Shown: positions 10,974-54,685 of the stretch, piece after piece | How positions within the stretch are numbered: position 1 is the stretch's first letter | How the letters are laid out: the number at the start of each line of letters is the position of its first letter | Source of the DNA: Microbacterium hydrothermale | GTDB taxonomy: Bacteria > Actinomycetota > Actinomycetes > Actinomycetales > Microbacteriaceae | NCBI RefSeq assembly: GCF_004854025.1 | Contig: NZ_STGM01000001.1 | Coordinates: 372,001 to 436,000 of the forward strand | Length of the DNA: 64,000 bases | Reading direction: 5' to 3' | Translations under genes and position numbers: made by a program | The notes under the pieces: generated by a model | Databases searched by the model: none | Told to the model about the DNA's origin: nothing | Seen by the model: the letters and a program-made list of their open reading frames with translations, nothing else

Positions 10974-10979
10974 GGGGCG

Positions 10980-11201
10980 ATCAGCACCGATCCGGCCATC
11001 ACCGGGGAGCTCGCGGAAGAACGTCCGGCCCTTCGACACGCTCAGGGACCGAACAAGTAGAACCGCGCGGGGCAGGCCCGTCACAGCCGCAGTGAGAGCG
11101 GTGCCGGCCCCTGAGCTCGTCGAAGGGTCCGGCGCAACGCAGGGTGGTACCGCGGTCCGAGTGGATCGTCCCGGCGAGGAGACCTCGACCCGCGGAGAGA
11201 C
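10980..11201 (+). promoter_or_regulatory. T-box riboswitch (ileS, translational type)
   Basis: tRNA-sensing leader of ileS. A short stem CCGG/CCGG (10992-10995, 11002-11005) presents ATC at 10998-11000, an isoleucine specifier, in its loop. GAACAAGTAG (11051-11060) and GTGAGAGCGG fit the conserved middle stem. AGGGTGGTACCGCG (11141-11154) is the hallmark T-box; TGGT at 11145-11148 would pair with the free 3' end of uncharged tRNA-Ile. No U-run terminator follows; instead CCGCGGAG next to the start can pair with the T-box CCGCGG, hiding the GGAG ribosome site. This matches the short-stem, translation-controlling ileS T-boxes known in Actinobacteria. Confidence 0.9.
11027..11130. repeat. Dispersed palindrome arms inside the T-box leader
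   Basis: CTTCGACACGCTCAGG (11031-11046) and CTGAGCTCGTCGAAGG (11111-11126) are the same two words as at 2526-2581. Here they face each other across about 60 bases and can form a stem of roughly 22 pairs with about three mismatches, enclosing the conserved middle stem of the T-box. Confidence 0.65.
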
Positions 11202-14200
11202 ATGACCTACCCTCGCCCCTCATCCTTCGGCCCGGCCGCCGACGCGCAGAGTGCCGCCGTCACGGCATCCGTCGTCCCGAGCCCCCGCTTCCCGGCGATC
11301 GAGGACGACACGCTCGCCTTCTGGAAGGCCGACGACACCTTCCGCGCCTCGATCGCGAACCGCGAGGGCGCCGAGGAGTGGGTGTTCTACGACGGCCCGC
11401 CCTTCGCGAACGGCCTGCCGCACTACGGACACCTGCTCACCGGGTACGCGAAGGACGTCTTCCCGCGCTTCCAGACCATGCGCGGCAAGAAGGTCGACCG
11501 CGTCTTCGGCTGGGACACGCACGGCCTTCCCGCCGAGCTCGAGGCGATGAAGCAGCTCGGGATCACCGAGAAGGACGAGATCGAGCGCATGGGCGTCGCG
11601 ACCTTCAACGCGAAGGCCCGCGAGTCGGTGCTCGAGTACACGCGCGAGTGGCAGGACTACGTCACGCGCCAGGCCCGCTGGGTCGACTTCGAGCGCGGCT
11701 ACAAGACGCTCGACACGACGTACATGGAGAGCGTCCTGTGGGCGTTCAAGACGCTGCACGACAAGGGTCTCGCGTACGAGGGCTACCGCGTGCTGCCCTA
11801 CTGCTGGCGTGACGAGACGCCGCTGTCGACGCACGAGCTGCGCATGGACGACGACGTCTACAAGATGCGCCAGGACCCCTCGGTCACCGTCACCTTCCCG
11901 CTGGTGGGCGCCAAGGCCGAGTCGCTCGGCCTCACCGGCGTCCGCGCCCTGGCCTGGACGACGACGCCGTGGACCCTGCCGACGAACCTCGCTCTCGCGG
12001 TGGGTCCCGGCATCCGGTACGCGGTCGTCGAGGGCGGTCCCAACGGCGCGGCCGACGTGCACACGACCCCCGACGGCACGCCCGACGAGGCGTTCGAGGC
12101 CGTCGCGCACCGCTACCTTCTGGCCGAGGATCTGCTTCCCAACTACGCTAAGGACCTCGGGTACGACAGCGCGGATGCCGCCCGCGAGGCCGTGCAGACG
12201 ACGATCTCGGGCGCGGAGCTCGAGGGCGTCGCGTACGACCGACTGTTCGACTATTACGCCGACGCCTCCGTGTGGGGAACCGAGAACGCGTGGAAGATCC
12301 TCGTCGACGACTACGTCACGGTCTCCGACGGCACCGGCATCGTGCACCAGGCCCCCGCCTACGGTGAGGACGACAAGCGCCTCGCGGATGCCGCGGGCCT
12401 GCCCACGATCATCTCGCTCGACGACGGCGGACGGTTCCTCTCGGCCGTGACCGACGTCGCGGGCGAGCTGTGGCTCGAGGCCAACCGTCCCCTCATCCGT
12501 CTGCTGAAGCAGGCCGGTCGCCTGCTGCGCGAGGCGTCGTACGAGCACTCGTACCCGCACTGCTGGCGCTGCCGCAATCCTCTCATCTACAAGGCCGTGT
12601 CGAGCTGGTTCGTGCGCGTGACCGACATCAAGGACGATCTGCTGGCGAACAACCAGCAGATCACCTGGGTGCCCGAGAACGTCAAGGAGGGCCAGTTCGG
12701 CAAGTGGCTCGAGGGGGCGCGCGACTGGTCGATCAGCCGCAACCGGTATTGGGGCTCGCCGATCCCGGTGTGGAAGAGCGACGACCCGAACTTCCCGCGC
12801 GTCGACGTGTACGGCTCGCTCGCCGAGATGGAGGCCGACTTCGGCCGCCTCCCGGTGAATGCCGACGGCGAGGTCGACCTGCACCGCCCCTACATCGACG
12901 ACCTCACCCGGCCGAACCCCGACGACCCGACCGGGAAGTCCACGATGCGCCGCATCGAAGACGTCCTCGACGTGTGGTTCGACTCGGGCTCGATGCCGTT
13001 CGCGCAGGTGCACTACCCGTTCGAAAACCACGAGTGGTTCGACGAGCACGCCCCCGCCGACTTCATCGTCGAGTACATCGGGCAGACCCGCGGTTGGTTC
13101 TACGTCATGCACGTGCTCTCGACCGCGCTGTTCGACCGCCCCGCCTACACGGGCGTGTCGTGCCACGGCATCGTGCTCGGCAACGACGGGCAGAAGATGT
13201 CGAAGTCGCTGCGCAACTACCCCGACGTGCGCGAGGTGTTCGACCGCGACGGTTCGGATGCCATGCGGTGGTTCCTCATGTCGTCGAGCGTCCTGCGGGG
13301 TGGCAACCTCGTCGTGACCGAGGAGGGCATCCGCTCGGGCGTGCGCGAGTTCCTCCTGCCGCTGTGGAACGCGTGGTACTTCTTCGCGACGTACAGCAAC
13401 GCCTCGGGCCCCGAGGGCTACACCGCCGAGTGGCGCACCGACTCGACCGACGTGCTCGACCGGTACATCCTCGCGCTCACCGGCGACCTGGTGACGAACG
13501 TCGCCGCCGATCTCGAGGGCCTCGACTCCACGACCGCCGCGGAGCGCCTGCGCGACTTCGCCGAGGTGCTGACCAACTGGTACATCCGCCGCTCGCGCGA
13601 CCGCTTCTGGGTGGGTGTGACCGACGACCCGTCCAGCCGCGAGGCCTTCGACACGCTCTACACGGTGCTCGAGACGCTGACCCGCGTCGCCGCTCCGCTG
13701 CTCCCGCTGGTCACCGAGCGCGTGTGGCAGGGCCTGACCGGCGGGCGCAGCGTGCACCTGACCGACTGGCCCGACGCCTCGGCGTTCCCCGCGGCGAAGG
13801 ACATCCGCACCGCGATGGACACCGTCCGCGAGGTCTCGAGCGTCGCGAACGCGCTGCGCAAGCGCGAGGGCAAGCGCGTGCGCCTGCCCCTGCCGCGTCT
13901 GACGGTGGTGACCCCGGATGCCGCCGGCCTGGCGCAGTTCGACGACATCCTCCGCGAAGAGCTCAACGTCAAGGCGGTCGAGCAGGTGGCCCTCCGGGAG
14001 GGAACGGCCGCCGAGTACGGCATCACCCACCGCCTCTCGGTGAACGCCCGCGCCGCGGGTCCGCGCCTGGGCAAGCAGGTGCAGCAGGCCATCAAGGCCG
14101 CGCGCGAGGGCGACTGGAGCGAGGTCGACGGGAAGGTCGTCGCGGGCGGCATCCCGCTCGAGCCCGCCGAGTACGACCTCGTCGTCGAGACCGCGGGTCG

Positions 14201-14600
14201 TCCCGAGGGTGAGGCGTTGGCCGTGCTGTCGTCGGGCGGCTTCGTGCTGCTCGACACCGTCACCACCCCTGAGCTCGAGGCCGAGGGCCTGGCGCGCGAC
14301 ATGATCCGCGGCATCCAGGACACCCGCAAGGCCGCCGGCTTCGACGTGAGCGACCGGATCTTCCTCTCGCTCACGTTCGCCGACGACGCCGACGCGCAGG
14401 CCGTCGCCCAGGCGTTCGAGGTCGCGGGCGTGGCATCCGAGACCCTCGCCGAGGCCGTCGTGCTCGCCGGTCCCGGAGGACGACTGATCGAGAGCGGCCG
14501 AGCCCTCCCCGCCGAGCACGAGGCGCAGATCTCCGCCAAGACCTATGCGAACGTCGGCGCCGTCACGGTCGCCGTCGCGCGGATCGGAGCCCCCGCATGA
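11202..14600 (+). CDS. ileS: Isoleucine--tRNA ligase (IleS, eukaryotic-like type 2)
   Basis: Class Ia synthetase charging tRNA-Ile, 1132 residues. The first signature is GLPHYGH (HYGH at about 74-77), the form found in the eukaryotic-like type rather than the HMGH/HIGH of most bacteria, and KMSKS is at about 665-669 followed by LRNYPD. CP1 editing domain and a long C-terminal extension are present. The ATG at 11202 follows GGAGAG and is the end point of the T-box leader, so expression should rise when tRNA-Ile is uncharged. Its stop overlaps folC (ATGA). Type 2 IleS proteins are typically poorly inhibited by mupirocin; that property is inferred here. Confidence 0.97.
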
Positions 14601-53795: not shown

Positions 53796-54685
53796 CCGAC
53801 ACCCGATCCGGTTTCGTGACCTTCGTGGGCCGGCCCAACGTCGGCAAGTCCACGCTGACCAACGCCCTCGTGGGCGAGAAGGTCGCGATCACGAGCGAGA
53901 AGCCGCAGACGACCCGCCGGGCGATCCGCGGCATCGTCAACCGCCCCGGCGGTCAGCTCGTGGTGGTGGACACCCCCGGCATCCACCGCCCGCGCACCCT
54001 GCTCGGGCAGCGCCTGAACGACCTCGTCGAGCAGGTGCTCGGCGATGTCGACGTCATCGCGTTCTGCGCTCCCGCGACCGAGAAGGTCGGCCCCGGTGAT
54101 CGCCGGATCGCGGAGTCGCTGTCGGGCTACCCGCGCGCCAAGAAGGTCGCCCTCGTCACGAAGACCGACGCGGCCACGCGCGACCAGATCACCGAGCGCC
54201 TCGTCGAGGTCGACGCCCTGCGCGAGGACTGGGCCGCGGTCATCCCGCTCTCGGCGGTGACGAACGACCAGCTCGACGTGCTGAGCGACGAACTCCTCGC
54301 GCTCATGCCCGAGGGGCCCGCGCTCTACGCCGACGACGTCGTCACCGACGAGACCCTCGAGGATCGCATCGCGGAGATCATCCGCGAGGCGGCCCTGCAC
54401 GGCGTCCGCGACGAGCTGCCGCACTCCATCGCGGTGACCGTCGACGATGTGGCCGCGCGCGAAGACAGCGATCTGACCGACGTGTACGCCAACATCGTCG
54501 TCGAGCGCGACAGCCAGAAGGCCATCATCATCGGCAAGAAGGGCTCGCGCCTGGCCGACGTGGGGGCGCGCGCCCGCGCCGGGATCGAGCCTCTCGTCGG
54601 CGGGCGCGTCTATCTGTCGCTGCACGTACGGGTGGCGAAAGAATGGCAGCGCGACCCGAAGCAGCTCGGACGCCTCGGCTTCTGA
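53792..54685 (+). CDS. era: GTPase Era
   Basis: Ribosome-assembly GTPase that binds the 3' end of 16S rRNA, 297 residues. G1 is GRPNVGKS at 13-20, G3 DTPGI, and G4 reads TKTD at 123-126 in place of the usual NKxD. The KH domain is near the end (AIIIGKKGSRLADVGARARAGIE). ATGA overlap with the CNNM gene; last gene of the run. Confidence 0.96.
   Translation: MTDTRSGFVTFVGRPNVGKSTLTNALVGEKVAITSEKPQTTRRAIRGIVNRPGGQLVVVDTPGIHRPRTLLGQRLNDLVEQVLGDVDVIAFCAPATEKVGPGDRRIAESLSGYPRAKKVALVTKTDAATRDQITERLVEVDALREDWAAVIPLSAVTNDQLDVLSDELLALMPEGPALYADDVVTDETLEDRIAEIIREAALHGVRDELPHSIAVTVDDVAAREDSDLTDVYANIVVERDSQKAIIIGKKGSRLADVGARARAGIEPLVGGRVYLSLHVRVAKEWQRDPKQLGRLGF

Follow-up and report, generated by a model that had tools for sequence, protein, structure and literature searches.

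In the translational ileS T-box of the Mycobacterium/Nocardia type, stem I, stem II with its S-turn strands, the IIA/B region, stem III and the antisequestrator follow one another in this order upstream of ileS. Among short repeats, REP elements with their RAYT transposase are imperfect hairpins marked by a 5' GTAG tetranucleotide, present in tens to hundreds of copies and often arranged as intergenic inverted pairs, Rickettsia palindromic elements (RPE) are short palindromes found inside genes, and STRR are short tandem repeats, which occur inside the RNase P RNA gene (rnpB) of heterocystous cyanobacteria.

The ileS leader of Microbacterium hydrothermale, which lies in the 64,000-nucleotide stretch of DNA analysed here (the window), has the parts of the Mycobacterium/Nocardia-type T-box in the same order, but differs in that its stems II and III are capped by two copies of a dispersed repeat. 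This repeat shares with REP elements the short imperfect hairpin, the tens to hundreds of copies and the frequent intergenic inverted pairs, and its copies bear compensating changes at three flank positions; unlike REP elements, it has no 5' GTAG tetranucleotide and no Y1 transposase in the genome, and some of its copies stand inside structured RNA genes. As with RPE, which belong to another host and to which the repeat is likened by description and not by sequence, copies are found within genes, here in frame in the N-terminus of isoleucyl-tRNA synthetase (IleRS) and also in rnpB. Its presence in RNase P RNA recalls STRR, but in Microbacterium it is a single covarying hairpin that caps helix P12 or P19. 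Literature searches returned no paper on the sequence of the repeat, none combining palindromic elements with RNase P RNA, and none joining T-box, RNase P RNA and a repeat element; judged by title and start of the abstract, nothing on such repeats was returned for REP elements with riboswitches, and nothing relevant for REP elements in Microbacterium. The accessible portion of PMC2267715 mentions riboswitches, but not the T-box.

We consider it likely that a dispersed hairpin has been captured recurrently at permissive tips of structured RNAs, and that the two arms in the window are two such captures. A hairpin repeat of about 28 bases would spread in Microbacterium, and structured RNAs would tolerate it only at free helix ends, namely those of stems II and III of the ileS T-box and of P12 and P19 of RNase P RNA. 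Each copy would replace or cap the old loop and add its own stem to the host helix; since capping a tip lengthens the host helix only, stem I, the S-turn strands, the IIA/B region and the antisequestrator would be left intact, and the switch would work with longer spokes. Its function is probably preserved, the local fold would be the one used, and tolerance rather than target choice would explain the sites.

Two repeat copies in the ileS leader

The leader occupies positions 10978-11172 (+), from stem I to the antisequestrator, upstream of an open reading frame for isoleucyl-tRNA synthetase (ileS, 1132 aa, 11202-14600, +); within the N-terminal 300 amino acids, the best segment shares 91% identity with the locus of Microbacterium sp. 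T32. At the Rfam gathering threshold no T-box is matched in the window, the leader scoring 20.4 bits against a cut-off of 93 (RF00230), and it was therefore compared with the leaders of relatives. An alignment (A1) of 18 other ileS leaders without the repeat provided a covariance model and a consensus consisting of stem I, stem II, a IIA/B-region hairpin and an antisequestrator region; the window leader, of the translational actinobacterial type, matches this model over its full length (138.7 bits, E 7e-35), its stem I, stem II, IIA/B region and antisequestrator are as in homologous ileS leaders, and the order of parts is common to it and to the named actinobacterial ileS leaders. Full-length matches with E 2e-20 or better were likewise obtained at 32/32 further loci, which comprise 29 of the 35 other carriers in the genus, two loci with a repeat core in stem II (L031, from Nocardioides alcanivorans, and L274) and one without a core (L022). 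A leader pattern was matched in 189/247 Microbacterium genomes drawn, and a stem I pattern in 55 of the 58 others, a few of which may not be leaders. Elsewhere in the window, a 19-base match to the model's stem I, CGATCCGGCGATCACCGGG, stands at 54092-54110 (-) with 14.4 bits and E 0.018, the rest of the leader being unmatched.

The loop of stem I carries ATC at 10998-11000 (+), conserved in 18/18 leaders of A1 and likely to be the isoleucine specifier. Stem II (11014-11065, +), delimited by covarying pairs, has a CGG/CCG base, the S-turn strands GGAAGAAC ... AGTAGAACC and a variable tip at 11023-11057, whose pairs covary in leaders without the repeat, with up to 8/18 sequences changed on both sides. 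Placing the S-turn in stem II of ileS T-boxes, as well as the stem names used here, follows the accessible portion of PMC10651847. At this tip, the window has 22 residues where the repeat-free model has 4, and these contain arm 1 (11031-11045, -; the + strand reads CTTCGACACGCTCAG), an exact copy of the repeat that caps stem II in a predicted local hairpin at about 11023-11054 with 9 enclosing pairs. The stem IIA/B region (11066-11098, +), located by the A1 consensus and the model alignment and named after the same source, has no insertion. Stem III (11101-11135, +) is predicted by local folding to have 11 enclosing pairs, and a 15-nt insertion at its tip relative to the repeat-free model contains arm 2 (11111-11125, +; the + strand reads CTGAGCTCGTCGAAG and the minus-strand match is CTTCGACGAGCTCAG), again an exact match, which caps the stem. 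The antisequestrator region with the T-box sequence AACGCAGGGTGGTACCGCGG, placed by the A1 consensus and the model alignment, follows at 11136-11172 (+).

The recurrence within the T-box of the words found at 2526-2581, on which the original prediction was built, is confirmed, with an exact 15-mer match at each arm, and the inverted pair at that distant site is also as described there. The arms do face each other, in opposed orientation, but do not stand at both ends of one linker as had been proposed: one lies in the tip of stem II and the other in that of stem III, with the IIA/B region between them. On the model alignment, the arms are two separate points and not one native helix.

A dispersed hairpin and its distribution

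The repeat, read in register as AGGNNN-CTGAGCNNGTCGAAG-N'N'N'CCGG, measures about 28 bases, and its 15-mer CTTCGACNNGCTCAG has 46 exact copies in the window's genome, versus 0 for a control with the reversed pattern. Allowing up to 2 mismatches, the window holds 17 matches versus 3.8 expected, a number reached by 0/100 shuffles; four are perfect, namely the two arms and an inverted pair between apparently convergent open reading frames, one half at 2531-2545 (+, the + strand reading CTGAGCTCGTCGAAG) and the other at 2567-2581 (-, the + strand reading CTTCGACAGGCTCAG). Flank positions 1, 2 and 3 are paired in 41, 45 and 37 of the 46 copies (shuffle means 22.0, 23.5 and 28.0), mostly as TCC/GGA or TGG/CCA, and the inner G-A mismatches together with the C-N-N-G end may make the hairpin compact, to judge from its sequence. 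According to a custom codon-based gene caller, 9 of the 27 repeat clusters stand between convergent genes and 4 inside open reading frames, the rest being in other or uncertain settings. None of the 20 repeat loci scanned, out of 24 in the window's genome, matched an Rfam family at gathering. A Y1 (RAYT) transposase was rejected as the mover of the repeat, PF01797 having 0 matches in the window's genome while being present in 5/14 control genomes.

Among 99 genomes of the genus, the 15-mer occurs in 0 to 633 copies per genome and the reversed control in 0 to 3, so that counts of a few copies are near chance. In one copy-bearing genome (G063), many of the copies among the matches listed stand in clusters, about 70-110 bases apart. 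In an empty-site comparison with the sister genome G009 of copies away from ileS, roughly 1 kb around the pair at 2531 (1655-2657 of the window) is represented there by only about 0.1 kb, a difference of about 0.9 kb, while L111 and L112 found no match in the stretches taken. CTTCGACAAGCTCAG was frequent in viral contigs among the matches listed, in a set so large that this may be chance.

The stem II and stem III tips were searched in 366 Microbacterium genomes with patterns accepting either orientation, a strict core being defined as TCGACNNGCTC or GAGCNNGTCGA. The stem II pattern matched 25 genomes (15 with the strict core) and the stem III pattern 43 (25 with the strict core), and the control pattern matched none in either scan. 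Direct reading of 143 leaders, out of 144 loci tried, that of G030 yielding none, added one genome to each site (G213 for stem II, G333 for stem III), giving as lower bounds at least 16 core carriers for stem II, at least 26 for stem III and 36 for their union among the 366 genomes. All 42 core matches within the 143 leaders fall in stem II or stem III, where they go with longer segments (median 35 with the core versus 18 without in the stem II tip, 46 versus 28 in stem III). Each copy is found without the other, that of stem III alone for example in G016 and G360, and that of stem II alone in G063 and G220; six genomes have both, in opposed orientation in the window's genome (G000), G058, G234, G290 and G333, and in the same orientation in G341. 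When 345 genomes from across the class were scanned for the stem II pattern, three matched, those of the window, of G428 (strict core) and of G579 (without core), and in Nocardioides alcanivorans (L031) stem II contains GAGCCTGTCGA.

The core is absent from 107/143 leaders, including that of G009, which on the ileS tree is the sister of the window's clade and has 0 genome copies of the 15-mer; this supports the suggestion that the repeat was inserted into a regulatory RNA. For the opposite suggestion, that the repeat arose from the leader's own helix, ileS offers no support; arms common to all ileS T-boxes and found nowhere else in the genome are not what is observed, given the leaders without a core and the 46 genome copies. 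Presence was mapped on a quick maximum-likelihood ileS tree of 143 genomes, from a sample enriched for carriers: the best tree requires 12 changes at stem II and 13 at stem III. If the well-supported (starred) inner branches alone are considered, 40/140, 6 changes remain necessary for 'stem II copy only' and 8 are needed for 'stem III plus copy only'; these counts do not separate gain from loss. The nearest relative of the window's genome on this tree, G360, lacks arm 1. In clade A, the stem II copies have common borders, yet do not follow the ileS branching; from their sequences they look as if shared by exchange between species, and such exchange of leaders may inflate the count of gains.

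RNase P RNA was found in 30/30 genomes chosen for high copy number or for a repeat-bearing T-box, and holds the strict core in 12/30 (13 with G070, at one mismatch), in P12 in 8 genomes and in P19 in 5, G063 having it in both; copies were placed by alignment in 14/30, and in the others by position or by a P12 pattern scan. The helix names follow the general architecture of RNase P RNA, and that of P12 is presumptive. Without the repeat, P12 forms only a small hairpin, for instance CCCC-GCAA-GGGG. Among the 366 genomes, a P12 pattern accepting either orientation gave 32 degenerate matches, of which 26 have the strict core and 6 do not, and the control pattern gave none; all 26 strict cores are in plus orientation and of the GAGCTTGTCGA form, and pairing around the core is predicted in 24/24 of the hairpins folded (those available as loci). 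With 18 of the 26 carriers included, the best ileS tree requires 16 changes in P12 presence. In the rnpB of the window's genome (L282), possible decayed remnants were seen by eye in P12 and P19. For tmRNA, neither the core nor the 15-mer (up to 2 mismatches) was found in 29 loci from the 30 chosen genomes, G016 giving a partial match only, and the cobalamin riboswitch, intended as a second control, was present in 0/30 genomes and so has no bearing on the matter. In 8/143 leaders, the 15-mer stands within 100 bases past the antisequestrator, in frame and read as P-S-T-S/R-S-G in a variable N-terminal region of IleRS (G029, G238, G228, G341, G209, G319, G048, G088), and 7 further matches lie deeper on the ileS side of the 143 loci. 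G341 has copies in stem II, in stem III and in the IleRS protein.

Carriage in these RNAs goes with copy number, genomes with the repeat in the T-box having a median of 100 copies versus 2 (10 versus 89 genomes, p 2e-5) and P12 carriers being likewise copy-rich (8 versus 91 genomes, p 1e-5), with p values that are too small because the genomes are related. Over the 143 tree rows, 9 carry the repeat in both T-box and P12, 27 in the T-box only, 9 in P12 only and 98 in neither (Fisher p 0.017), an association absent in independent pairs (median p 1).

Local hairpins, the cross-arm helix and alternative explanations

In predicted folds, the core is enclosed by at least five local pairs in 38/42 tips, 26/26 in stem III and 12/16 in stem II, the other 4 having no such cap around the core. 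In clade A, 58/65 cells pair in stem III, with three host pairs changed on both sides among five distinct sequences, and 62/70 in stem II, where no pair is changed on both sides. The stem of about 22 pairs that had been proposed to form between the arms around the middle stem is physically possible, an unconstrained fold choosing this duplex at -49.3 kcal/mol in the window, but it is not conserved, as single-copy relatives and the same-orientation pair of G341 indicate. We conclude that the conserved fold is that of the local hairpins and not the cross-helix, which would be a by-product of two copies in opposite orientation. Since it would part the two S-turn strands, the cross-helix should disable tRNA binding; it possibly forms in the window's species as a real trap that is not conserved, and is more probably a hazard, averted as the RNA folds in the order of transcription, than a designed part. 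From energy folding alone one would predict a long stem for which relatives show no conservation. Taken as structural evidence, the energy fold of the whole leader was set aside (z-score -0.98, 28/200 shuffles folding as well or better), as were Rfam matches to DUF3800-IV and MIR1846 across the arms, which are below their cut-offs and reflect the inverted repeat only.

Could the cross-arm helix nevertheless be functional in the window's clade, the opposed copies being kept as a second off-state or as a temperature- or rate-sensitive switch? In folds that include neither pseudoknots nor folding order, cross-pairing is favoured in all five opposed-arm genomes, where the whole fold is 17.5-25.3 kcal/mol better than its three parts folded separately and the duplex between the tips amounts to -40 to -50 kcal/mol; for comparison, the advantage is 3.3 kcal/mol in G341, and in genomes without both copies 17.2 in G360, 12.4 in G236, 11.3 in G339 and 2.3 to 7.3 in four others. 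Such a function nonetheless appears quite improbable, with arm 1 missing in G360 and G016, arm 2 missing in G063 and G220, both arms in the same orientation in G341, and changes in arm 1 that make the duplex weaker, at -43 kcal/mol in G058 and -40 in G234 instead of about -49. The latter two genomes had also been taken as signs of selection for the local stem II fold, a reading that was dropped: stem II alone gives -10.5 kcal/mol in the window's genome, -10.0 in G058, -15.1 in G234, -17.4 in G290 and -13.3 in G333, and as these values have no consistent trend, they do not demonstrate such selection. A mere convergence of GC-rich hairpins, leaving the arms and the repeat unrelated, had been raised as well and is barely conceivable: the tips of stems II and III are variable GC-rich hairpins anyway, but this is contradicted by the reversed control (0 versus 46 copies), by the absence of control matches from all three of the 366-genome scans, and by the many copies that carriers have elsewhere in their genomes.

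Capture at permissive tips, the preferred explanation, has further to be weighed against a repeat that seeks out hairpin ends by inserting into folded single-stranded DNA or RNA loops, the tips being its targets. By hand count over 99 genomes, 9 of the 3223 copies of the 15-mer lie in the two T-box tips, versus 0.6-1.3 expected if intergenic DNA is assumed to be 250-320 kb and the tips 60-100 bases, and the repeat recurs at two tips each in the T-box and in RNase P RNA, with a strong orientation bias by site (14 minus and 2 plus in stem II, 24 plus and 2 minus in stem III, 26/26 plus in P12), a bias by site that simple tolerance does not predict. Targeting is still unlikely in our judgement: essential RNAs accept insertions only at their tips, so that survivors look targeted, while the 29 tmRNAs have no repeat, some copies stand in coding frames, and the window's genome has no Y1 transposase (PF01797). 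The plus copies of RNase P RNA and stem III are complementary to the minus copies of stem II, and a bolder reading, speculative and about as unlikely as targeting, would see the repeat as a portable module for RNA tips, containing tandem G-A pairs and ending in C-N-N-G, selected in one orientation, which either inserts at folded tips or is kept there by binding of a protein or of a partner RNA.

Under recurrent capture, one mobile-looking hairpin has repeatedly lengthened peripheral helices in a riboswitch and in RNase P RNA; the result is a natural series of insertion mutants that marks the free tips and on which ideas about the evolutionary growth of helices could be tested. It also raises the questions of the repeat's mover and of the cause of the orientation bias at each site. 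Another dispersed repeat, GGTCGTTGAGCGAG...GACGAAACGC, is also seen in T-box tips, for example in stem III of G137, G100 and G326, and so is a further one, GGTCTCGA...CTCGACCA, which is presumably common in this family of bacteria; instances of both are found at L151, L159, L155, L168 and L229.
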